DNA of 64,000 bases from Ferroplasma acidiphilum (GTDB lineage Archaea; Thermoplasmatota; Thermoplasmata; Thermoplasmatales; Thermoplasmataceae), in contig NZ_CP015363.1 of assembly GCF_002078355.1 (NCBI RefSeq), forward strand, positions 620,001 to 684,000. The letters are read 5' to 3'. This document shows, piece by piece, positions 19,931-34,045 of the stretch. Position 1 is the first letter of the stretch, and each line of letters begins with the position of its first letter. The position numbers and the translations under genes are program-made. Below the pieces are notes generated by a model. It searched no databases. It was not told the origin of the DNA and saw only the letters and a program-made list of their open reading frames with translations.

Positions 19931-20393
19931 ATTACGGTAAAAACATTATATATATAAATTAATCTATTTGAATATTCTCTAATGCCTGCTTAATATTTTA
20001 TTTATGAATACCCGATAAAAAATGGAACGAAATGATCATTATAAAAATATGATAACAATAGTATTTTTCTTCGTCATATAACCCCTTTATATTATAATTT
20101 TTAGCTGGTCAAATTATAAATGGAGAACGCGAGTACAAGTATTCTATCTAAAAAAATATTGCCCAAAATATTGGAGAAAAACTATTTAACTTTACTGGCA
20201 TTAAATCTGGATATGATATACTGTTTATCATAATACAAGATTTTTCCCTATAATTTGAATTTGCCATCCAGTTAATTTGGCTTTTAGCAAATAAATCATC
20301 TATTTTAACAAACCGGTGAAATTATATGGTAAAACATGTCCAGAATTTGTGCAATAAAAAAAATATAAATAGGTATATGGTGATACACGGTTA
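19931..20393. other. Divergent intergenic region before the peptide transporter operon
   Basis: Contains promoters for the NCS1 permease (left) and for dppB: AAATATAAATAG at 20361-20372, about 27 bases before the ATG at 20394. A 37-codon frame from ATG 20120 has no ribosome binding site and is not called. Nothing else is recognised. Confidence 0.5.
20361..20372 (+). promoter_or_regulatory. TATA box of the peptide ABC transporter operon
   Basis: AAATATAAATAG is centred about 27 bases before ATG 20394, giving a leaderless or nearly leaderless transcript. Confidence 0.5.
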
Positions 20394-21383
20394 ATGAATG
20401 TTTACCTCATTACACGAAAAGTAATACAGGCTATAGTTTTATTATTATTTGTGGTGGTTATATTATATATATTACTACGGCTGATGCCCGGTAACCCTGC
20501 AGAATTATATATACATAGTTTAAAACATCCGAATCCAACAACGATAAAGCACATTTATAAGGAATATGGCATTAATCCAAATAATAAATATAGTCTCACT
20601 GAATTTATAATATATTTTAAGGATATGTTTTCATTCCATTTCGGAGTCAGCTTTGCAAATATGAATGACAGTGTAATTTCTCTCATAGGTTCAGCCTTAC
20701 CTTATACACTCATAATTTTTGGTGTAGCAGCTGTGGCCTCATTTATAATAGGAATACCATTAGGCATACTGACTTCATTTTTAAGAGGTAAAAAATCAGA
20801 ATCACCAATATTAGTAACATCCACTATTTTAAATTCAATCCCATTTTTTGCTATGGCTATAATTGTATTTCTTATACTCGCAGTATATTATCCCATTTTT
20901 CCTTTGCAGGTCTCATTTTATCGTCTTACTCCACTTTTCTCACATCCTACCGTTTCACGTTTAATTACAATGTTCTATTATTTTGCGATGCCTATATTAA
21001 CACTTGTCGCAATAGAAGCAATGGGACATCTGTTAACTATGAGAAGTATAATGGTCTCTGTACTCGGTGAAGATTTTATAACAACAGCGAGGGCAAAGGG
21101 AGTTAAAAATTCATCTATAATGTTCCATCATGCGGCGCGCAATGCTATGGTACCGGAATCTACGAGAATGGCATTAGAATTTGCCCTTTTGATGAGTGGT
21201 GCTGTAGTAACAGAAATTATTTTTGGTGTGCCAGGGATGGGAAGATTGCTTTACACAAATACGCTGGATGAGAATTATCCCGTAATCCAGGCTGCTCTAT
21301 TTATTCTATCTATAGTAACAATTATTGCGTATTCTCTAGTTGATTTTATACATGCATGGTTAGACCCGAGGGTGAAGGTATGA
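20394..21383 (+). CDS. dppB: Peptide ABC transporter permease, DppB type
   Basis: A 329-aa membrane protein with six helices. It starts with the DppB-style first helix and RLMPGNPAELYI, and the EAA loop is in ITTARAKGVKNSSIMFHHAARNA (within GEDFITTARAKG), followed by GAVVTEIIFGVPGMGRLLY, typical of the oligopeptide/nickel permease family. It forms half of the membrane channel with the DppC-like protein encoded next; its TGA overlaps that gene's ATG. First gene of an operon for peptide uptake. Confidence 0.93.
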   Translation: MNVYLITRKVIQAIVLLLFVVVILYILLRLMPGNPAELYIHSLKHPNPTTIKHIYKEYGINPNNKYSLTEFIIYFKDMFSFHFGVSFANMNDSVISLIGSALPYTLIIFGVAAVASFIIGIPLGILTSFLRGKKSESPILVTSTILNSIPFFAMAIIVFLILAVYYPIFPLQVSFYRLTPLFSHPTVSRLITMFYYFAMPILTLVAIEAMGHLLTMRSIMVSVLGEDFITTARAKGVKNSSIMFHHAARNAMVPESTRMALEFALLMSGAVVTEIIFGVPGMGRLLYTNTLDENYPVIQAALFILSIVTIIAYSLVDFIHAWLDPRVKV

Positions 21384-23545
21384 ATAACAATAAAATTTTA
21401 ATTTTTAAGAATAATATGAAGTTCACGGCAAAAAACCTCCATAAACAGTGGAAAGTATTTTATAGATCACGTTATGGCAAGGTAGGGTTTTATATTTTAA
21501 TGGTTTTTATAGTAATTTCCTTGTTAGCACCGGTTTTAGTACATGGCAATCCATTTGCAGCTATACCTACAGAGGATTATTTCTCACCTATACAGGAGAT
21601 GAACCACCCACTGAATTTTACTGCAGTTAATTCCTCTTATGCTATAACTTCAAGTGAATATGGTACCAGTGCAGTTAGTTATTATTTATTTATGCCAGGA
21701 TTAGCAAATGGAACATATAGTATATATGCGATATCTCCAAAAAACGCTTCATCAACATATTTATTCCATATAGACGGTATCCCGGAAAATTTATATGCTT
21801 TTAGCGTTTTTAACTCCACAACAGGCATATCACAGGAAAATTTAATGGTTTCCACCAATAACACTATTTATATGGGGAATGTTGTATGCTCATATAATTC
21901 CTTAACTGACAGTTCTAGTGTACATATGAGTAATATGATAAAGACCAGATCCACCAACGGTGAGATATTATCAGACTATACAAGTTCTAAGACATATGCT
22001 TTATCTGACCCCTCAATTATATCTAGCCAGTTTCTTACTTCCTCTCCCCTTTCATATGTCTACACACTTTCTGAGAACAATAGTAAATATTATGTTAATA
22101 CATTTTACACCTCAAATTTAACTCATTATTGGAGCAGGGAAATTTCTGTAAAACCAACAAATCTGTATTTTTATGGTCAGGAATTTGAAAATCCGTCCGA
22201 AACAAGAATTATAATCACAGCCGGGGATAATATATATTCATATAACTATAATGGAACACTGGAGTACAACGAAAAATATAATTTTACATTATCAAATCTT
22301 ATTATTCCATCTGATTACCAGATATATCCTTCTCACAAGAACGATGCTTTCACTTTTGCCGGCAAAGATGTATATAGTATAAACATAGAAACCGGTGAAA
22401 ATAAAGTAATTTATAGTTCACCTCAAATGATTTCTGCATTAGGCACAAGTGCAGCAACAACGCCAACAGAGCCTCCTTCTATTTTTATGGTATCCACAGC
22501 CACCAATGTTTATTCATTAGGGATGAATAATGGAAACTTATCCGTTGCAAATACAATAAAAGTGCCTTTTGGAGTAAATAATATAAAATATTACACATCT
22601 GGCACATTTTTATTATCAAACACAACAAGTGGCGATATAATATATTTAATAAACCCGTCAATTCAGTATCCATTTTCCTGGCATGCTTCATTAAATAGGA
22701 AAATCACCGCTCCTGTTTTATTTAATAATCCGTATCCAGAAAATAAGAGTTTAGACAATGCACCTGCTATAGCAGTATTAAGTGGAAAAAATCTTATAGT
22801 ATATAGCTTTGAGGGGCAGGCTGCAGTATTACCACCAACATCAAAGACGTTGTCAGGTATTTCTTTGCCTCTCGGTGCAAATAATGCAGGAAATAATGTA
22901 TGGACTATATTTATTGATAGCTTCCCAACAGATCTTGAGGTAGGATTTGCCGCTGGAATAATAACTATAATAATATCTGTGGTGGTATCAATGGTTATAG
23001 GTTATTACTCCGGAATATTAAGTTCATTCTGGGAGACAGTATCTCTGGCAATTTTCCTTATTCCCGGACTTCCATTATTCATTGTATTGGCAACAATTTT
23101 AGGTCCGACATTAATTAACTTAATATTGATATTCTCCCTACTTGGTTGGCCATTTGTTACGTTTTCTTTAATTGGAGTTGTCAGAAGTATTAAAAGCCGT
23201 GTATTTGTTGAATCTGCAATAGTATCAAATTTGAGCACAACTAAAATATTACGTAGACATATATTACCTAATATGGGAACATTACTGGTATATTTGACGT
23301 CTATTAACATCGGTGGAGCAGTCGCAGCAGTATCAACATATGAAATATTGGGCTTAGCCCCTCTTACCATACCAACGTGGGGAGGCATGCTGAACGGGTT
23401 CCTTGGCGATTATTATGGCATTTCCAAATACCCATGGATATATGTTCCAGCATTGTTGGCATTAACATTGTTTATTCTTGCATTCATATTTATCTCCCGC
23501 GGTATCGATGAAGTTGCAAATCCAAGGCTTGGTGGTAGAAAATGA
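21380..23545 (+). CDS. dppC: DppC-type permease with a large extracytoplasmic insert
   Basis: The 721-aa protein is more than twice the usual 280-300 aa. Residues 36-60 are the first helix (YGKVGFYILMVFIVISLLAP). From about 60 to 500 is a non-membrane region outside the cell with repeated motifs such as DVYSINIETGENKVIY, NVYSLGMNNGNLSV and NLIVYSFEGQA, resembling PQQ-type beta-propeller blades. The permease resumes near residue 515 with five more helices, including the EAA-like loop VESAIVSNLSTTKILRRHIL. ATG 21380 overlaps the dppB stop. The insert could contact the binding protein or peptides directly. Confidence 0.85.
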   Translation: MNNNKILIFKNNMKFTAKNLHKQWKVFYRSRYGKVGFYILMVFIVISLLAPVLVHGNPFAAIPTEDYFSPIQEMNHPLNFTAVNSSYAITSSEYGTSAVSYYLFMPGLANGTYSIYAISPKNASSTYLFHIDGIPENLYAFSVFNSTTGISQENLMVSTNNTIYMGNVVCSYNSLTDSSSVHMSNMIKTRSTNGEILSDYTSSKTYALSDPSIISSQFLTSSPLSYVYTLSENNSKYYVNTFYTSNLTHYWSREISVKPTNLYFYGQEFENPSETRIIITAGDNIYSYNYNGTLEYNEKYNFTLSNLIIPSDYQIYPSHKNDAFTFAGKDVYSINIETGENKVIYSSPQMISALGTSAATTPTEPPSIFMVSTATNVYSLGMNNGNLSVANTIKVPFGVNNIKYYTSGTFLLSNTTSGDIIYLINPSIQYPFSWHASLNRKITAPVLFNNPYPENKSLDNAPAIAVLSGKNLIVYSFEGQAAVLPPTSKTLSGISLPLGANNAGNNVWTIFIDSFPTDLEVGFAAGIITIIISVVVSMVIGYYSGILSSFWETVSLAIFLIPGLPLFIVLATILGPTLINLILIFSLLGWPFVTFSLIGVVRSIKSRVFVESAIVSNLSTTKILRRHILPNMGTLLVYLTSINIGGAVAAVSTYEILGLAPLTIPTWGGMLNGFLGDYYGISKYPWIYVPALLALTLFILAFIFISRGIDEVANPRLGGRK

Positions 23546-25659
23546 TGGAAAATATTGAAAATGAATACAATTATACTGGAAATACAATATTAAAAGTTGA
23601 GAATTTAAATGTCAACTTTAAAACTTTTAATGGTACGGTTAAAGCTCTAAGAAACATTAATTTAGAGTTAAAAGATGGCGAAATACTTGGTATACTTGGC
23701 GAATCAGGTTCAGGTAAAAGTACACTGGCACTCGCTATAATGTCACTTTTGCCTGATAATGCTTTAATAGATGGTTCAATATTGTTTAAAGGTAATAATT
23801 ATATAAACGAATCAAAAAAATTGACCCGGAAACAACAGAAAGAAATTGATGCAAAGCTCAGAAATATGAGATGGAAGGACATCTCTATGATATTTCAAGG
23901 CGCTATGAATTCATTTAATCCGGTTTATACTATCGGGAAGCAGATTGGTGAAGTATTTAGAATCCATACAAATTTATCAAAAGAGGAAATAAATAAAAAA
24001 GTAATTGATGTATTAAAAATTGCTGGATTAACTCCCAATGTAATGAAATCCTACCCGCACGAATTGTCCGGAGGCATGAAGCAACGGGCAGTAATAGCAA
24101 TGGCACTTGCCTTAAATCCCAATATAGTTATTGCTGATGAACCGACCACTGGCCTGGATGTAATAACACAGGCCGAAATAATCTCTCAAATTAAAAAATT
24201 ACGGGATACTGGATTAATAAAATCCATGATAATAATATCCCATGACATTGGAGTTGTGTCGCAACTTGCAGATCATATAGCTGTTTTCTATGCCGGGCAA
24301 ATAATGGAATATGGGAAATCTAGAGATATATATCTTGAATCTAAAAATCCGTATACAATAGAACTCTTAAAAAGCTATCCCAGTATTTTACATGCAAAAA
24401 ATCATGTAGAAGGAATTCCCGGCAGATTGCCAGACCCAACAAATTTGCCTGCTGGTTGTAAATTTGCAGATCGCTGTTATATGGCCCAGGATATATGCAG
24501 AAAAATAGAACCGGAAAAAGCATATGTTTCCGGTGAACATTACAGTTATTGTCATTTTGTAAACAATATTCAGGCAAATTCATTAACTAGCAATATTGAC
24601 ACCAATTTTTCCCCCGGCTCATATAATATAATAACGGTACAGGATTTAACTAAATATTTCTATCTAAAAAACAATATGATGTCATCATTATATTCAAAGA
24701 ATAATGCACATGTGCGGGCTGTTGACCATGTAAGTTTGGATATAAAGAAAGGTGAAATTTTAGGGATAGTTGGTGAATCAGGTTCAGGTAAAAGCACACT
24801 TGCTAGGCTGTTAATAGGTATTTTAAAGCCAACATCCGGCGATATTGAGTTTTTCTTTGATGAAACTCAGCATGCGAATGTTAGTAAGCTAAAGAGGAAA
24901 CATGAAGATTATAAAGAATTTAGAAAAAATACACAAATGATATTTCAAGACCCATTCGATTCATTGAATCCAAAAATGACTGTTTTTAATATCGTTTCTG
25001 AACCTATAATAGGGCATAACGCGTTAAAAGATTATTCCGAAATGGAAGCTATGGTTAATGAAGCACTGGCTAAATCTGATCTATATCCGCCTGAAGCTTA
25101 TCTTGATAGATACCCATATGAATTATCAGGTGGCGAAAGACAAAGAGTTGGAATTGCAAGGGCAATTGTCTTGAAGTCAAATTTTATTATTGCAGATGAA
25201 CCCACATCCATGCTTGACGTTTCATTAAGAGCCTCATTTATGAATAAGTTAAATGAAATAAGAAAGAAAGATCAATTGACAATAGTATATATATCACACG
25301 ACATTGCATCAGTTTATTATTTATCTGATAGAATAGCAGTTATGTACCTGGGCGTAGTTGTTGAAATCGGAGATGCAAATGAAATAATAACAAATTCCTT
25401 ACATCCATATACAAAGGCATTAATAAAATCTGTTCCATCTCCCACACCTGAATGGGATCCCGGTAAAATTGATATAATTGGCGAGATCGGCAATTCAATA
25501 AATGTGCCAAAAGGTTGCAGATTTTTTAACCGCTGCGTTTACAGGAAGGATATATGTAAGGATACTCCACCACCGGTAAAAGGCGACAGTAATCATTGGT
25601 ACAGGTGCCATTTTACAGAAGATGAATTGGTGTCAATAAAAAATGAAAGAAATAAATAA
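23542..25659 (+). CDS. Fused peptide ABC transporter ATPase (DppD-DppF)
   Basis: A 705-aa protein with two complete ABC domains in one chain. The first has Walker A GESGSGKST (about residue 55), signature LSGGMKQRA and Walker B IVIADEPTTGLD. The second has Walker A GESGSGKST (about residue 412), signature LSGGERQRVGIA and Walker B FIIADEPTSMLD. Each is followed by the oligopeptide-type C-terminal domain with Cys residues (CKFADRCYMAQDIC; CRFFNRCVYRKDIC), which in relatives binds an iron-sulfur cluster. It powers the DppB/DppC channel. Its start overlaps the dppC stop (ATGATGG). Confidence 0.93.
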   Translation: MMENIENEYNYTGNTILKVENLNVNFKTFNGTVKALRNINLELKDGEILGILGESGSGKSTLALAIMSLLPDNALIDGSILFKGNNYINESKKLTRKQQKEIDAKLRNMRWKDISMIFQGAMNSFNPVYTIGKQIGEVFRIHTNLSKEEINKKVIDVLKIAGLTPNVMKSYPHELSGGMKQRAVIAMALALNPNIVIADEPTTGLDVITQAEIISQIKKLRDTGLIKSMIIISHDIGVVSQLADHIAVFYAGQIMEYGKSRDIYLESKNPYTIELLKSYPSILHAKNHVEGIPGRLPDPTNLPAGCKFADRCYMAQDICRKIEPEKAYVSGEHYSYCHFVNNIQANSLTSNIDTNFSPGSYNIITVQDLTKYFYLKNNMMSSLYSKNNAHVRAVDHVSLDIKKGEILGIVGESGSGKSTLARLLIGILKPTSGDIEFFFDETQHANVSKLKRKHEDYKEFRKNTQMIFQDPFDSLNPKMTVFNIVSEPIIGHNALKDYSEMEAMVNEALAKSDLYPPEAYLDRYPYELSGGERQRVGIARAIVLKSNFIIADEPTSMLDVSLRASFMNKLNEIRKKDQLTIVYISHDIASVYYLSDRIAVMYLGVVVEIGDANEIITNSLHPYTKALIKSVPSPTPEWDPGKIDIIGEIGNSINVPKGCRFFNRCVYRKDICKDTPPPVKGDSNHWYRCHFTEDELVSIKNERNK

Positions 25660-25984
25660 AATAAGACTAAAAATAAGTTTTATACCAATTGCTATACTTA
25701 TAATTTTAATATTTTTACCTTTGCCTTTTTATTTCGCTGGCCTATTTAGTTATTTTAAAATTATGCCATTGATAATATTAATTAGTGCATTTTTTATATT
25801 TTTTGTAGGGGCATGGTGGGATTTTGGGGCTAATGAATATATTAAAAATTTAATTGTTGGGCATGTGGAGCTATCTGAGAACGATTTAAAATATATTAAT
25901 AGGCAGCAACTAATTATAACATTAATCTACATTCTCATAGGATTGCTATATATCTCGATAGCATTTGTATTGAATTCCATTTAA
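25643..25984 (+). CDS. Small membrane protein in the peptide transporter operon, 113 aa
   Basis: Starts inside the end of the ATPase gene (17-base overlap). It has three hydrophobic helices: residues 10-32, 38-58 and 88-110, with a charged loop GHVELSENDLKYINRQQ between the last two. No family is recognised. The overlap shows co-translation with the transporter, so it may be an accessory or assembly subunit. The long AT-rich gap that follows separates it from the binding protein gene. Confidence 0.6.
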   Translation: MKEINKIRLKISFIPIAILIILIFLPLPFYFAGLFSYFKIMPLIILISAFFIFFVGAWWDFGANEYIKNLIVGHVELSENDLKYINRQQLIITLIYILIGLLYISIAFVLNSI

Positions 25985-26418
25985 TAGTTTTGGTTTATTT
26001 TAATATTTACGGGAACTAGGTATGTGTCTAATGGCTATGTGGAATAATACAAATTTATGAATGCTAATCGTGATGTTTTTATTCTAAACAAATATGTGAC
26101 AATGTTGCTACGTGAAATTCGATATACTACAACTTTCTTTTGTTGCATTTCTCAACAACCAAACAATATCCATATCCCATCATATGTATCTTTTTATTAT
26201 TATATTATATGGCTTATTATTCAGTTTTCGCAATATATATAATATCCTTCTATCATCATATCATCGAATTGTTATTGATAGATATTTTAGATTTGCGCAA
26301 AATTATGTATGCAATATTTTATTTTTACATTGCATTTGCGATAAGTTTTTAATAATAACGTATTAACTCTCAGAATTTAAGCGAAAGATTTATATTAAAT
26401 TACTTATTACTACTTTTA
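25985..26418. other. AT-rich gap before the binding-protein gene
   Basis: Several overlapping short frames exist in all phases but none has a ribosome binding site or recognisable protein. The only clear signal is the TATA box TTTATATTAAAT at 26389-26400, 25 bases before ATG 26419. Confidence 0.5.
26389..26400 (+). promoter_or_regulatory. TATA box of the peptide-binding protein gene
   Basis: TTTATATTAAAT lies about 25 bases before the ATG at 26419. The binding protein thus has its own promoter, allowing higher expression than the channel genes upstream. Confidence 0.6.
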
Positions 26419-29400
26419 ATGACTTATAATAAGAAACAAAAACTATTGATAGTGTTTGCTATTTTGGTAGCAGCAATATTTGTAATGGAACCGCTATATG
26501 GAAATATAGGCAATAATAACCAAGCCCCCTCAACATCTATTTCTTCTTCAATTCCGCTTATATCAGGAGCATCAGCATCTCCATCGTCATATACATATCC
26601 AACAAACACATCCGGAGAACCAGGATATACCGGTGGTACTTTTAAATTGGCCCAAATTGGAAATCCGAATAACTTAAATCCATTTGAAGCTGATACAGTT
26701 TGTGATTTATACATTTTGGATTCAATTTATAGTTCCGCCACAGATGAACTACCTAACGGAACAATAATACCCTGTTTAGCAACTTCATATAATGTCACTT
26801 TAGCTCCTGCTAATATGACTACTTTTGATCCAATGACAGGTGGTAATTCCTCCGTTGCTGAAATATGGACAGTACATATAAGGCCCGGTGTTCAGTGGGA
26901 TGACTGGACATCTGCTAATGCTGATTCCACATATGTATATAGCAACTCCACATCTTTCTACAATGAAACTGGTATACCATATACCCATACCTATAAGGAA
27001 GTGTATAACGCTAGTACAGGGAAGTTCCAGAAAGAGTCTAATATAGTAATGAAAACAAATTATGTTCAGGCAGCGGATTTTGTACTGTCCTGGAAAATAC
27101 TATCAGAATCCACTGAGTATGACGGTTCATATATTGGTGTCGTTAATGTAATGCCAGTTAACAATTTAACCGTCGATTTCTACTTATCTAAACCATCAGC
27201 GACTTTTGTACCATACACCCTTGAAACACCTATATTACCCTATCATATATGGGTAAGCCATGATTATGCAAGTGCAGGAAGCGGATACTGGAATGAAACA
27301 GCAGCTACAGCCGCAACACCCGCTAATGGTTCATATAACGAGTGGGATTTAGGCCACTCTGGACCTTTTGGAGGCACCAATGGAGAATATCCCGGGTTAG
27401 TTGGTTCTGGACCCTTCATGATGAACGGTGGATATGGAATGCCAGTAGGAAAAGTATTTACAAGTGATTATTGGCAAGTTTATGAGAACCCTAATTATTT
27501 CATGCAATATGTTACTGGTAAATATTTATGGACACATGAGTTTATTCCCAAAATATTTTCTGAAAAGGTGTATATATTCTCTAGTCCCTCATCAGCCGTA
27601 GGTGCTTTAAGTACAGGCAAGGTAGATGCAATAGAAAGTGATCTATCTTCAGAGTTTGTATCTACTGCAGACCAGATACCGAACGTACATGTATTTGAAA
27701 AACCATCTACTGGGTACGCATACTTTAAATTTAATTCGTATAGTGCGGATGCACCTTTCAATATAACTGCTTTCAGGCAGGCATTGAGATACGCATCGCC
27801 TTTAGCTTATATAGATTCATCAATATGCGATGGTTATGATGTGCCTGGATATTCTATATTGCCAACGATAGATAAACCATATTCAATTGCATCTTCCGTG
27901 CCGTCTTTCACTTTTAATCTAAAAACAGCAAATGCAACGATTGCGTCTATACCTGGAATGCATTATAAGAATGGCGAGTGGTATTATAATGGAGTACAGG
28001 TAACAGCAACAATACAATCTCCATCCTCTTCGCTGATACCACAGATATTCACAGGTTATGAGACAATAGCAAGTGACTGGTCATCCATTGGAATACACAC
28101 AACGGTAGAGTCAGAAAGCTTTTCAACAATAATATCTAAACTTCTGGCATATTCAAATAGTGCTTCCTCTCCCTCTGCATCTTATAATGTAATCACTTTG
28201 GGTGTATCAGGCTTACTAGGAGACCCAATTGGGGATTTAGTAGATGATTTTAACTATACAGCAGCATCAGGCTCTGGTGATTATGAAGGCCCATTTAGTG
28301 CAATGAATGTTTCAAATCCCTATTTATCAGATCTGGGAATAAAGGAGGAGTCAGCCTTAGGCGTAGTGGATACAACTACGTATAACCTTACAGGTAGCCA
28401 GATTGACTCTTTAATGACAAATTTAACAAACTACGCTAACACTAATACTTCACTTAAAGATACTGACGAGGCAATAGCAGCAATGCAATATATTGAGGAC
28501 GAAGAGTCAACAATGATGGAAATAGGGTATGGTCCTACAGATAGCATAGCATACAGTAATTCCACGTTTACCGGATTAACAGACGTTCCATCTGATATGA
28601 ATGGATTCTGGGAACAGAATTTATTTACCGTTCATCTCAGGGCAAAGGCTCTGGTAGTTGCAAAACCAACAGCAAAAATAATAGTTTCAGGAATTGCTAA
28701 TAAGCTTGTTTACTACAATGGGGAATATGGAAATATAACATTTACAGCAATTAATAATGTAACTCTTAAACCTGTTGCTAACCAAGCAATATCGATAACA
28801 GTTGAGCCATCATTAATCAACATTACAAGCTTATCAGGTACCACAAATAGCAAGGGACAATTTACATACGAATTCAAGGTTTATAATGCTAACACATTTA
28901 TCAACACAGTTGGTTATAATGGATTAGTAAGTGTAACTGCAACCGTAGTTTCAAGCATATCTGGAGTTGCTTCAGGTGTGGGGAGTGTACCAATAAACGA
29001 TTTGCCCGTGCCTGTAGCTTATAAAGTAAGCGGACCAACGGCGATCTCGGGAACTACTCCTACGTACTATAATATAACGATATATAATCCAGCAACGGGA
29101 GCTCCGATAAGCGGTTACTCTTATACCATACAAACGTTAACTGCTGCAATTACAATGTCAAATACTACATCAAACCAGAAAATATCGTATCTTAGCACAT
29201 ATGATGTAGACTGTAATTCAACCAGTATATCTGTACCGGTAAATTCGACTTACAGTAGCGATAACATCACATCCATATCCGGTGTTACTGGATCAAACGG
29301 GGTAATATCTGTAATGATTGCTGGGAATTCTACATTTAATTACACATTAAATGGGAATAATTATGAATCCTACATATTCTTTGGAAATTATGCAGATGCA

Positions 29401-30312
29401 GCACCTGGTGCCGGCGAAGCCCCATATATGGTACTTGGTGAAGTCACATCTTCAATGAACGTTAATGGCTACGGTGCTGGAGAACCGTTTGAAATTCCCA
29501 TAATGCTGGAGAAGAGCATGGACTATTATAATATATCAGTAGACAAAATAGCTATCAATGGAACAACAACCGAATTAATCTTCCATGTTACCAATAGTAC
29601 AGGTGCAGCGGTAAGTGGCTATAACTTAAATGTAACTTCACAAAATGTGCTAGGTGCAAACAGAGGTTACTTCATAGATTCTAGTAGCTCAGCAATAAAT
29701 CCTAATTATAACCTTACCACTTCTTGTGGAGCGGATACAGGTTCCCAGTATAGCCCGATGATAACATTGGTAACAAATAGCAATGGAATGGCATATGCTA
29801 ATTTCACCTCTTTGTTTTACAGTTATAATGCAACAACAGGGGCTATATCATCGATGGCAACACCATCTGGCGCTATACTACCATATGACGAATTCCAGAT
29901 TAGTGTAATTGGTGACGGTGCGCCTGCTGTAGCTTACGCTGTTGTATCTTCTAATACCTCTGCTTCTGTGTATAACCTAACATTTACAGAATCGGGATTG
30001 AAATCAGGAACGCTCTGGTATGTAACTGTAGGAACACAAACTGAATCCTCCAGTTCAAGCTCAATAGTATTCGAAGAAGTAAATGGAACATATGCATACA
30101 CTGTTGGAAACGTCACCGGCTATAAAATAACAAAAGATGCTTCCGGTAGCGCTAAACTCAGTGGCAAGAACGCTTCTGTTGATGTAACATTTGCAAAGAA
30201 AGTCAATTACACAGATTATTACATAATAGGAGGTATAGTTGCTGCAATAATAATTATCGGCGGTGTAGTATATGCATTAAAGAGGAAATCAAAAACGCCT
30301 AAGCAGAATTAA
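26419..30312 (+). CDS. Giant peptide-binding lipoprotein-like protein (SBP family 5)
   Basis: A 1297-aa surface protein. It has an N-terminal hydrophobic segment (LLIVFAILVAAIFVM), then a family 5 solute-binding domain to about residue 750 (GGTFKLAQIGNPNNLNPFEA; EIWTVHIRPGVQWDDW; ADFVLSWKIL; VGSGPFMM). Residues 760-1200 look like Ig-like beta domains (NITFTAINNVTLKPVANQAI; SGTTPTYYNITIYNPATGAP). Around 1200-1265 is a YNLTFTESGLKSGTLWYVTV domain, as seen in other Thermoplasmata surface proteins. It ends in one helix (IIGGIVAAIIIIGGVVYAL) and KRKSKTPKQN. It delivers peptides to the DppB/DppC channel while anchored at its C end. Confidence 0.88.
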   Translation: MTYNKKQKLLIVFAILVAAIFVMEPLYGNIGNNNQAPSTSISSSIPLISGASASPSSYTYPTNTSGEPGYTGGTFKLAQIGNPNNLNPFEADTVCDLYILDSIYSSATDELPNGTIIPCLATSYNVTLAPANMTTFDPMTGGNSSVAEIWTVHIRPGVQWDDWTSANADSTYVYSNSTSFYNETGIPYTHTYKEVYNASTGKFQKESNIVMKTNYVQAADFVLSWKILSESTEYDGSYIGVVNVMPVNNLTVDFYLSKPSATFVPYTLETPILPYHIWVSHDYASAGSGYWNETAATAATPANGSYNEWDLGHSGPFGGTNGEYPGLVGSGPFMMNGGYGMPVGKVFTSDYWQVYENPNYFMQYVTGKYLWTHEFIPKIFSEKVYIFSSPSSAVGALSTGKVDAIESDLSSEFVSTADQIPNVHVFEKPSTGYAYFKFNSYSADAPFNITAFRQALRYASPLAYIDSSICDGYDVPGYSILPTIDKPYSIASSVPSFTFNLKTANATIASIPGMHYKNGEWYYNGVQVTATIQSPSSSLIPQIFTGYETIASDWSSIGIHTTVESESFSTIISKLLAYSNSASSPSASYNVITLGVSGLLGDPIGDLVDDFNYTAASGSGDYEGPFSAMNVSNPYLSDLGIKEESALGVVDTTTYNLTGSQIDSLMTNLTNYANTNTSLKDTDEAIAAMQYIEDEESTMMEIGYGPTDSIAYSNSTFTGLTDVPSDMNGFWEQNLFTVHLRAKALVVAKPTAKIIVSGIANKLVYYNGEYGNITFTAINNVTLKPVANQAISITVEPSLINITSLSGTTNSKGQFTYEFKVYNANTFINTVGYNGLVSVTATVVSSISGVASGVGSVPINDLPVPVAYKVSGPTAISGTTPTYYNITIYNPATGAPISGYSYTIQTLTAAITMSNTTSNQKISYLSTYDVDCNSTSISVPVNSTYSSDNITSISGVTGSNGVISVMIAGNSTFNYTLNGNNYESYIFFGNYADAAPGAGEAPYMVLGEVTSSMNVNGYGAGEPFEIPIMLEKSMDYYNISVDKIAINGTTTELIFHVTNSTGAAVSGYNLNVTSQNVLGANRGYFIDSSSSAINPNYNLTTSCGADTGSQYSPMITLVTNSNGMAYANFTSLFYSYNATTGAISSMATPSGAILPYDEFQISVIGDGAPAVAYAVVSSNTSASVYNLTFTESGLKSGTLWYVTVGTQTESSSSSSIVFEEVNGTYAYTVGNVTGYKITKDASGSAKLSGKNASVDVTFAKKVNYTDYYIIGGIVAAIIIIGGVVYALKRKSKTPKQN

Positions 30313-30664
30313 ATAACTTTATTTTTTTACAAGAAAAATTTTTTACTACCCAATAATTTATAATCTGATTTTTATTTTCAATAATTTTTCATATTGTACC
30401 GGTTATTTTTAATATGTTTTGGTATTGCAATTCATACAGTGATAAATCTTCAGCATAGCTTTGCAGCTAGACTAAAAGACTCTACCCAAATATGCTTTTT
30501 ACACTGGATAAATGTACTGGACTATTATAGAAAGAAAGGAAATATTAACGACAGATTTAACGGGATTAATTCAAAACCATGTGAGCGTATGATTATGTAG
30601 TAATATAAAAAATAAGCATCAATACAGGTGCAATATAAAATGAAATTATTGTTAACATATTCAT
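30313..30664. other. Convergent intergenic region
   Basis: Begins with T-runs (30322-30328 and 30339-30345) that probably end the binding-protein transcript. A 68-codon frame from TTG 30394 lacks a ribosome binding site and recognisable content and is not called. Confidence 0.4.
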
Positions 30665-33600
30665 TTAAGTCAAATCGAGTTTTTTATAATCATTCATTTC
30701 CTTTAAAATATACTCTATTGCACTATCCAGTTGTACGTCTCTAGATTTTAGAAAATCCTGTGGCATATTTTCTATGTAAATATCAGGCTCCGTACCATAG
30801 TTCTCCATTCCATATTTGACATCTTTAAACCATGTGGCAAATTGAGGCTGGGTTACCGTTGTATTATCAAGTAATTTTATTTTAGGGTTAATACCAACAA
30901 CACCACCCCATGTTCTTGTACCTATAACTTTGCCAAGACCCATCAGTTTAAAAACATGCGTTCCTATATCACCGTCTGACCCTGCATATTCATTTGTTAA
31001 TCCAATCATCGGCCCATTGACAGAATCTATCGGGTATGGAGTTATAATGCCTCTACGTGGAACATCGTAACCGATCCTCTTTCTTGATAATTTCTCTAAT
31101 AATAACTGTGAAACGAAGCCACCGCCGTTAAATCTTAAATCCACTATAAGGCCACTCCTGTTAGCCTCCCGATCATAAATCCTGAAAAATTCATTGAAAC
31201 CATTCATTCCCATATCGGGTATATGAATATATCCAATCTTATCACCGGTTTTCTCATGAACATATTTTCTATTTCTTTCAACGAATTCTCTGTACCTCAA
31301 ATATTTTTCGTCAATCATTGTCTTAACGTAGTATTTCTTAGTTTCATTTCTGTTTACTATTTCAATTGTTATTATTTCGTTTGCATGACCTAATAGTAGT
31401 TTATCAGGATTATTAGTTGCGTCAAGAGTAACACCGTTTATGGACTTTATAATATCATTTTCCTTTATGCCTGTGTAAAGCAATGGTGATTTTTCATTTT
31501 CATTGGATGGGTCTCCGTTATAAATCTTGGTTATTATATAATTATTGTTTTTGAATTCATAGTCGATACCAAGTTTTCCAATACTTATTGACTCTACGTT
31601 TGAGAGGTCGCCACCTATTTCGTACGAATGCGATGTGCTGTATTCTCCCTGCATTTCTCTAATTAAATCCGATAACTCAAATCTTGTCCTCACTTTATTT
31701 AATAATTTCTTATATTTTAGATAAGGGTCATCGCCCAGTTTTTCAACTTTTTCCTTACTCCAGTAATTCTCTTTGATTAAATTAAAAGTGTCATATAACA
31801 TGTTTTTCCATTCATTCATAGGCTCTATTGTAATATTCAATCTTGTTAAATCTATATCCTCATCCTTTTTCGGTTCAATTTCCCTCTCTATGAATTTATT
31901 GCTGGATTTTCTAATTAGCAGGAATTTTTTATTGCCGGATATAAGGTAATTAACAACTTCACTTTCATATAATTCACTTTTTTTCTTTTTAAAGTCAAAT
32001 AGCTCAATATTCCCTGTTTTCTCGTCGTTGTTGAAGAGATAATATTTCATTGATCCCTCAACCGGATAATGTAGCAGGAGGACACCATTATTTACAGGAA
32101 TGATGTTAGCATAATCTTCTGCCGGTACTGGAAAAACTTCGCTTAATTGTATAATATTGTTAAGTTTGTATTTACCAGGAATATTTTCATGCAATTCTTC
32201 AGGTATATCCGAAAACAAAGGGAAAATATTTTCCTTTACCGGGATGGCATATGGCTTTGTTATTTTTGGATATCCTAAATTAAACACAAGCTGGTCTGCA
32301 ACCGGATCAAGAGACCGTTTTGACAGGTAAAATAGATAATTGTCGTCGTTACTGAAAACAGGTTTGAAGTCGATAGCTCCGGAAGTTGTTGCGTCATATT
32401 TTTTATTGGCTGTTAAATCAAATATCTTTATGGATGCACTTTCGTTATACCCGTAGTATTCGGATTCAGGATACGAATATGCAAGCAATATGGAATCATT
32501 TGACCACGAAAAATCGTCTATTGTTCCGGATTCGCTTTCATCTATCTTATTTATGTTTCCATTTTCAACATTTAAGATAAATAATTCAAATCTGTTATTC
32601 CCAATTGCAATGTATTTGCTATCAGGTGAAGCTTTCATTGAAAAAATTATGCCATTTTTGAAGTCAAAGAATTTTTTCAATGTTTTATCAACACTGTATA
32701 ATAATATTTTATTATTCTCTTCGTTATAATTATATATTATTATATCGTTGTTATTCATAAATTCAATTATCTGATTTTTTAATTTATTTATATTCATAAC
32801 AGGCCCATTTTTTATGCCTGTAAATAATGCCTGCCCCCTGCTTATCAAGCCGATTAAATTTCCAGTATAATTTATTTTATAATCGGTCAAATAATCTGTT
32901 GCCTTTACAATCCTGTTTTCAATATTCACTGATGGTATATTTATATTAATATCAAGTTTTTCTACCCTATCATTCTGGAATATAAACAAAGATCCGGATT
33001 TCTGAAAGATTATTTTTTTGCTGTCTGAATTGGCATTTCTCACATAGTAATCCTTAAAATCTGTATGTTTTTTGAGGTTGCCACCATTAAAATCGGCTGA
33101 GTATATATTCGCACTTCCCTCATGGTCCGAAATAAAATATAATTCATCGTTGTAAATCATAGGTGAATTTACATTTGATTCGAGGTCTATTATTATTTTA
33201 AAATCATCATTCTTGCATGACAATATTTTTCCTCTTGTTCCGCCTTTATATCGCTTCCAGTGGGGCATATCTATTGTATTTCTGCCAATTATGGTATAAT
33301 CTCCGTAATATATAATATTTAAAGCTGGCCCTAGATTTAAAGGCTCAGTATTTTCATTCACTATTCTGTATAACATAGGAGTTCCGAATGGATAATATGC
33401 ATCGGTTGAAATTATTAAATTGCCATTCTTATCAAAACCTGCAATGGATGTATACATTCTTCTGCTCGTGCTTTTACCACAAAGATATGTAACCCGGTTC
33501 AAATTACCTTTCTCAAGGTCTATTGAATATATATCAGAGGATTCGCCGGATTTTCCAGTCATCAATCTGAAATAGACATATTTTTTGTCAGGGCTAATTT

Positions 33601-33739
33601 TTGGATTTGTAACTATGCCTAAATTGTTTGTCAATCTTTCAATATGTTTTGTGTTAATATTGTATTTCCACAGATCGTTATCATTCACAAAAACAACTAA
33701 ATCATCATTTATATCTGGATACATAAAATATCTTTCCAT
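30665..33739 (-). CDS. tri: Tricorn protease
   Basis: A 1024-aa product with the whole tricorn layout: a six-bladed propeller (residues 1-300; DDLVVFVNDNDLWKYNI, SDHEGSANIYSADFNGGNLK), a seven-bladed propeller (to about 640), and a catalytic part with a PDZ-like domain (GIKENDIIKSINGVTLDA) and a C1/C2 core. The catalytic His is in STSHSYEIGG and the nucleophile Ser, about residue 920, in NEYAGSDGD. It cuts proteasome-derived and imported peptides to short products. I choose the ATG at 33739 because a TATTTAAA box lies 25 bases upstream; Met codons five earlier and five later are alternatives. Confidence 0.95.
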   Translation of the reverse strand: MERYFMYPDINDDLVVFVNDNDLWKYNINTKHIERLTNNLGIVTNPKISPDKKYVYFRLMTGKSGESSDIYSIDLEKGNLNRVTYLCGKSTSRRMYTSIAGFDKNGNLIISTDAYYPFGTPMLYRIVNENTEPLNLGPALNIIYYGDYTIIGRNTIDMPHWKRYKGGTRGKILSCKNDDFKIIIDLESNVNSPMIYNDELYFISDHEGSANIYSADFNGGNLKKHTDFKDYYVRNANSDSKKIIFQKSGSLFIFQNDRVEKLDININIPSVNIENRIVKATDYLTDYKINYTGNLIGLISRGQALFTGIKNGPVMNINKLKNQIIEFMNNNDIIIYNYNEENNKILLYSVDKTLKKFFDFKNGIIFSMKASPDSKYIAIGNNRFELFILNVENGNINKIDESESGTIDDFSWSNDSILLAYSYPESEYYGYNESASIKIFDLTANKKYDATTSGAIDFKPVFSNDDNYLFYLSKRSLDPVADQLVFNLGYPKITKPYAIPVKENIFPLFSDIPEELHENIPGKYKLNNIIQLSEVFPVPAEDYANIIPVNNGVLLLHYPVEGSMKYYLFNNDEKTGNIELFDFKKKKSELYESEVVNYLISGNKKFLLIRKSSNKFIEREIEPKKDEDIDLTRLNITIEPMNEWKNMLYDTFNLIKENYWSKEKVEKLGDDPYLKYKKLLNKVRTRFELSDLIREMQGEYSTSHSYEIGGDLSNVESISIGKLGIDYEFKNNNYIITKIYNGDPSNENEKSPLLYTGIKENDIIKSINGVTLDATNNPDKLLLGHANEIITIEIVNRNETKKYYVKTMIDEKYLRYREFVERNRKYVHEKTGDKIGYIHIPDMGMNGFNEFFRIYDREANRSGLIVDLRFNGGGFVSQLLLEKLSRKRIGYDVPRRGIITPYPIDSVNGPMIGLTNEYAGSDGDIGTHVFKLMGLGKVIGTRTWGGVVGINPKIKLLDNTTVTQPQFATWFKDVKYGMENYGTEPDIYIENMPQDFLKSRDVQLDSAIEYILKEMNDYKKLDLT

Positions 33740-34045
33740 ATACAAATTATACATAGTGTTTATTTAAAGGTTTGTTTGTGAAAAATATGAATTTGGGCAT
33801 TTAATTGTCTAAATAAGTATCAACATCGATTTTTGATATTTACACTGTACTATTTATTTCATAGGCCCTGGATCAGGTATTTGCTCAATCCCGTATTTTC
33901 ATCTATTTTTTATCAATGCATATTGCTATAGATAAATTTTACAGTCAGAAACATTTGGGAAATATAATAAAAGAACCTAGGCCATGAATGAATTTAACTA
34001 AAAAAATAAATGTTATTTGCCAGTATTCTTCTAGAGTAACAGGCT
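33740..34045. other. Intergenic region upstream of tricorn
   Basis: Holds the tricorn TATA box on the minus strand (TATTTAAA at 33761-33768). No gene or structured repeat is recognised in the remainder, which includes the 3' end region of the pantothenate kinase transcript. Confidence 0.5.

Follow-up and report, generated by a model that had tools for sequence, protein, structure and literature searches.

Why would the permease of a peptide importer carry a domain of more than 400 residues in the loop that follows its first transmembrane helix? The question is raised by a DppC-type permease encoded in a 64,000-nucleotide stretch of the Ferroplasma acidiphilum genome (NZ_CP015363.1, positions 620,001 to 684,000; hereafter the window, whose numbering is used throughout).

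Architecture of the permease

The permease gene spans 21380..23545 on the forward strand and encodes 721 aa from the ATG at 21380; an in-frame upstream ATG at 21356 would give an alternative protein of 729 aa. Its start overlaps the stop codon of the preceding DppB gene by 4 nt (ATGA), and the start of the following ATPase gene overlaps the DppC stop at 23545. The sole Pfam matches in the protein are OppC_N (residues 24–60) and BPD_transp_1 (residues 534–717). BPD_transp_1 was matched well above threshold (1e-11, 45 bits against a cut-off of 26.4), and its core was found in 36/36 members of the family of insert-bearing DppC proteins. OppC_N scored 20.3 bits, slightly below its cut-off of 23.9, with matches at E<=1 in 34 of the 36 members. 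The NCBIfam equivalog models for OppC/DppC, about 300 aa long, matched the 721-aa protein from residue 469 onward only and far below cut-off.

Hydropathy and the OppC_N match place transmembrane helix 1 at residues 35–53 (21482..21538, forward strand), where the structural model has a helix at residues 31–53. It is preceded by a basic N-terminus, indicating the cytoplasmic side. The BPD_transp_1 membrane core (22979..23530, forward strand) was matched by Foldseek to DppC/OppC of Escherichia coli and Mycobacterium tuberculosis. No helix was detected by hydropathy between residues 53 and 522. The sequence-only reading had proposed an expansion of some 440 residues after helix 1, and hydropathy and Pfam bear this out, giving about 450 residues between helices 1 and 2 and an insert of about 434–453. 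A second DppC of normal length, 309 aa, is encoded in the same genome.

Operon and neighboring genes

The insert-bearing DppC is paired in one operon with a DppB-type permease of normal length (329 aa; 20394..21383, forward strand) that retains its N-terminal BPD_transp_1_N region by Pfam and NCBIfam; DppB is conserved 5' of DppC at loci with sufficient flank. Downstream lies a fused DppD-DppF ATPase of 705 aa (23542..25659, forward strand) with two ABC_tran and two oligo_HPY domains (Pfam), likewise a single long frame in relatives of the operon. An oversized SBP_bac_5 binding protein of 1297 aa follows (26419..30312, forward strand), with an N-terminal signal or anchor and, by hydropathy, a C-terminal transmembrane anchor at about residues 1262–1289. 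By Pfam, the set of a type I peptide ABC importer is complete, with two permeases, two oligo_HPY ATPases and a family 5 binding protein.

Between the ATPase and the binding protein is a gene for a 113-aa membrane protein (25643..25984, forward strand) with about three transmembrane helices by hydropathy and no Pfam or NCBIfam match. It is a constant partner of the operon, mostly 113–147 aa across the fetched loci, and occurs in 22/22 genomes with a near-complete propeller as against 1/59 others (G286; Fisher p 6e-19), a co-occurrence that reflects co-inheritance in one operon and is not by itself proof of contact. DppB, insert-bearing DppC, fused DppDF, the small membrane protein and the big binding protein are kept together across the fetched loci, where the binding-protein gene varies in position (upstream, downstream or on the opposite strand).

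A tricorn protease gene lies next to the operon on the reverse strand (30665..33754; Pfam). Tricorn recurs beside the operon across Thermoplasmata, in 12/41 fetched loci (L045, L048, L052, L053, L060, L062, L063, L065–L068 and L070), several of them near-duplicates, so that a fair estimate is about seven independent cases; it also does so in the F. acidiphilum window and in genome G113. The protein families and the tricorn neighbor point to peptides as the probable substrate. Family 5 importers serve nickel and sugars as well.

Fold and location of the insert

When folded alone with AlphaFold2, the insert (residues 54–501; 21539..22882, forward strand) gave a confident, nearly helix-free model with about 32 strands (pLDDT 84.4, pTM 0.84), which excludes a disordered region. 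The full-length protein was modeled at pLDDT 82 and pTM 0.65, at which the placement of the propeller relative to the membrane core is uncertain. In a Foldseek search of the insert against the PDB, propellers were the top matches (E 2e-9 to 4e-7, probability 1.00; TM-score on the query at most 0.53), including BBS9, BBS1, RACK1, DDB1 complexes, BamB (4imm) and tetrathionate hydrolase (7cqy). The insert is thus well supported, on modeling grounds, as an all-beta propeller of four-stranded antiparallel blades, as the sequence-only reading had supposed. The propeller body covers about residues 68–481 (21581–22822, forward strand). Grouping of strands and motifs, rather than coordinates, suggests about eight blades, one of them apparently closed by the first strand together with the last.

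Sequence comparison adds fainter signals. Self-comparison of the insert profile gave a weak repeat at an offset of about 50 columns (E 0.007). PQQ_2 was matched by 10/36 homologues (best E 0.006, under the cut-off) and Beta-prop_ACSF4 by 7/36 (best E 2e-6; 26 bits in L062 against a cut-off of 133), and across the 36 members no Pfam match of the insert to a PQQ/BamB-like propeller family rose above its curated cut-off. A full-profile sequence search of the PDB returned permease matches only, none of them within the insert.

Because helix 1 follows a basic N-terminus and the membrane core matches DppC structures, the insert is placed outside the cell. Its composition leads to the same placement, since it is low in charge and rich in sequons. 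The charged fraction is 11%, equal to that of the binding-protein ectodomain (11%), as compared with 24% and 26% in two cytosolic proteins, DppDF and tricorn, and N-glycosylation sequons exceed the shuffled expectation in 34/36 members; the F. acidiphilum insert by itself has 13 sequons against 9.6 expected, which is not significant (p 0.13). An extracellular position, also part of the sequence-only reading, is therefore well supported by predicted topology and composition.

Conservation of the insert

Among 243 genomes of the phylum, a search at the protein level recovered 13 full-length homologues of the insert-bearing DppC, and a scan of GTDB genome contigs yielded 41 loci, among them Ferroplasma acidarmanus Fer1 and metagenome-assembled genomes named Cuniculiplasma, Sysuiplasma and Thermoplasmata. 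About 38 homologues in independent assemblies carry the insert, that of Fer1 among them. It is present in every subfamily homologue recovered over most of its length, and measures 421–490 residues in all 36 members aligned full-length. That an assembly or annotation artefact fused two genes has a negligible probability: nothing was seen to speak for it, and the same architecture recurs in dozens of independent assemblies, complete genomes too; recurrence in the 13 full-length homologues and the GTDB loci excludes such a join.

A profile built from the insert alone was run against 81 genomes of the order. Near-complete copies turned up in 22 genomes, and 21 of these sit in open frames of 708–771 aa, the size of DppC; all other matches were short and weak. 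In the remaining genome, G246, the match to the propeller DppC falls in two pieces with a stop (G246:C4:554732-556148), possibly a pseudogene or a sequencing error. Pairwise distances of insert and permease are strongly correlated (Mantel r 0.90), although mean identity is 28% in the insert and 57% in the permease, so that the insert diverges faster. On the strength of this correlation and the confinement of intact near-complete copies to DppC-sized frames across the 81 genomes, we conclude that the propeller belongs integrally to the permease. In the genomes searched, the domain is confined to this operon. One old insertion, inherited together with the permease, is the simplest reading.

Open-access literature dealing with propellers or extracellular loops in ABC permeases yielded no description of this architecture, and the excerpt of a paper on F. 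acidiphilum Y(T) that was available (PMC5473848) does not mention a permease insert. The combination of DppC and propeller in a known importer class is real, conserved and apparently undescribed.

Other enlarged permeases and strain variation

Elsewhere in the phylum, further oversized DppC proteins (L080–L087, L091) carry an insertion at the same site between helices 1 and 2. Only the insert of about 330 residues in L085–L087, whose DppC proteins are 611–618 aa, resembles that of Ferroplasma (hhalign probability 90, E 2e-6); the remaining ones in this group have no profile similarity to it. In Thermoplasmatota the site thus seems open to large domains and to have been occupied by them on more than one occasion. 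One family, which includes genome G034, has DppC proteins of 817–825 and 611–618 aa with inserts in the same place and partner DppB proteins that are enlarged too, at 467–535 aa.

In the G034 family, DppB (467–535 aa) and DppC (611–825 aa) are both enlarged at L100, L101 and L106–L109, and the other Dpp operons of G034 are normal-sized. Several further variants were seen. At the helix 1–2 site, DppC of L088 and L091 has a different insert, of about 200–340 residues, that appears unrelated. In L098 and L099 (family f30), the DppC membrane core is split by about 160 extra, partly hydrophobic residues, and in L094 and L095 DppC has an added N-terminal domain of extracellular appearance (PKD-like by eye in L095) together with an extra helix. 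DppB and DppC appear to form one fused frame of 720–752 aa in L036 and L089; a similar fusion at L040 was rejected, as it arises artificially from a stretch of N.

The close relative Fer1 (L112), which is labeled as the same species and has flanks about 93% identical, lacks the whole operon at the syntenic site (window about 20000–30445) and has there a 303-aa ORF that is transposase-like by eye. A divergent version of the operon, with a DppC 37% identical, adjoins a second tricorn gene at a distance of about 33 kb.

Size of the binding protein

Where found complete, binding proteins that accompany the insert-bearing DppC measure 872–1848 aa overall and 980–1848 aa in the fetched loci. In 17 genomes, with binding proteins and DppC paired by hand from listed positions, those beside an insert-bearing DppC were 872–1440 aa (n=7, median 1296) and those beside a normal DppC had a median of 625 aa (n=30), a difference with a Mann-Whitney p of 1e-4 that is uncorrected for relatedness. 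In the examined cases, the propeller is always accompanied by a large receptor. A strict tie between insert and receptor size was rejected as a rule: genomes G156 (1351 aa), G227 (1266 aa), G093 (976 aa) and G125 (966 aa) pair a large binding protein with a normal DppC, showing that a large receptor does not need the propeller. Docking of the oversized binding protein by the propeller, as the sequence-only reading had suggested, is plausible and circumstantial.

Possible roles of the propeller

We give a roughly even chance to the following reading of this peptide importer of acidophilic Thermoplasmata. Standing outside the cell, the propeller would sit beside or above the mouth of the channel on its DppC half and would contact the large, membrane-anchored binding protein, keeping the receptor in register and/or walling off released peptide. 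Cleavage of the imported peptides would follow in the cytosol, through tricorn and its aminopeptidase factors. In favor of this reading count the presence of the insert throughout the recovered subfamily, its confident propeller-like fold, its outside-type composition, its joint divergence with the permease, the greater length of the binding proteins beside it, and the conserved operon with tricorn as a recurrent neighbor. Two importers provide the analogy on which we favor docking and/or enclosure on the side of DppC. In E. coli DppABCDF, DppA is contacted by a scoop motif of DppB, for which a role in sealing the cavity has been proposed (PMC12136057), and in the maltose importer the P2 region of MalF is in direct contact with MalE (PMC3150292). 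Counted against docking is the N-terminal region of F. acidiphilum DppB, the expected site of the scoop, which is of normal length, so that the usual DppB seal may be intact. Large binding proteins with normal DppC count against it as well, in that size alone needs no propeller, as does the uncertain placement of the propeller relative to the membrane core. The insert also diverges faster than one would expect of a conserved docking face.

Other roles can be weighed against the same evidence. The propeller might serve as a structural shield for the channel mouth and loops, protecting them where a cell with little wall faces very low pH, and make no specific contact with the binding protein. 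This fits its occurrence in acidophilic Thermoplasmata, the low charge and sequon richness of the domain, and the description of Ferroplasma as cell wall-deficient (PMC10354927). We nevertheless find it unlikely, as the normal-length DppC of the same cells and of many relatives in the order indicates that acid does not require a propeller. Propellers commonly bind peptides in or above their central channel, and the insert could act as a second receptor or filter that binds or size-selects peptides ahead of the transport channel, as propellers do in tricorn and prolyl oligopeptidases. Its quick divergence would suit changing ligands. However, the operon already has a dedicated binding protein, the insert has no conserved polar ligand-binding residues, and it has no detectable sequence link to the neighboring tricorn propeller (hhalign probability 0.3), which leaves a filter less likely still than a shield.

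Fast divergence is also what would be expected of an exposed domain turning over under pressure from viruses or grazers, and the arrangement in Fer1, with a transposase-like ORF in place of the operon and a 37%-identical version elsewhere, agrees with such diversification. Within the subfamily, however, no permease has lost the domain, whose framework residues are conserved, and we regard this explanation as improbable. An extracellular peptidase that trims peptides at the mouth is highly improbable. The tricorn gene that adjoins in the genome speaks for it, but the only invariant residues in 36 inserts are Pro, Gly and Trp, and Ser, His, Asp, Glu and Cys are invariant at no position; no catalytic Ser-Asp-His or partner hydrolase domain of the POP, DPPIV or tricorn type was found in the insert-bearing DppC, nor any alpha/beta-hydrolase or other catalytic domain by Pfam. 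Tricorn itself is named among cytoplasmic and membrane-associated proteases (PMC5473848). The suggestion of peptide processing made in the sequence-only reading is thus not supported.

Docking and/or enclosure on the DppC side, our preferred reading, may extend further. Somewhat unlikely, and offered tentatively, is a closed extracellular chamber over the channel, built from the permease-borne propeller, the small membrane protein and the giant tethered receptor, which would mark a distinct importer class of acidophilic Thermoplasmata. If so, neither a periplasm nor an S-layer would be needed for peptides to be caught and passed on. The usual description of type I importers has a mobile receptor and a permease mouth that is almost bare; the conserved propeller of over 400 residues on DppC, together with a giant tethered receptor and a small membrane subunit, shows that such importers can have their extracellular face rebuilt. 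It also offers a concrete system in which to ask how wall-poor cells at very low pH avoid losing captured peptides.

Comparison with known systems

In predicted fold and weak profile matches, the insert is like PQQ/BamB-like and WD40-like propellers. It differs from them in its low identity (6–14%), in scores below the Pfam cut-offs, in the absence of conserved cofactor or catalytic residues and in being housed in a membrane permease.

The closest known importers are E. coli DppABCDF (PDB 8z1v-8z1z) and M. tuberculosis OppABCD/DppABCD (8j5q, 8wd9), with which the DppC core aligns by sequence (E 2e-12) and by Foldseek (TMt 0.63–0.71 to E. coli DppC/OppC and M. tuberculosis OppC/DppC). The Ferroplasma operon has the same subunit set and the gene order BCDF. 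Whereas DppC and OppC of E. coli and M. tuberculosis are 287–302 aa with a short loop between helices 1 and 2, Ferroplasma DppC has about 450 residues there; in addition, its DppD and DppF are fused, and its binding protein, which is anchored C-terminally in the membrane, has about double the length.

The P2 region of MalF is an Ig-like domain between helices 3 and 4. Like the insert, it forms a globular domain inserted on the extracellular side of one permease in a type I importer (MalFGK2E), and it contacts the binding protein (PMC3150292). P2 is smaller, at about 180 residues (91–271 of MalF), and lies elsewhere in the chain than the Ferroplasma propeller, which falls between helices 1 and 2. 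For MalF-P2, contact with the binding protein has been shown; for the propeller of Ferroplasma DppC, it is what we infer.
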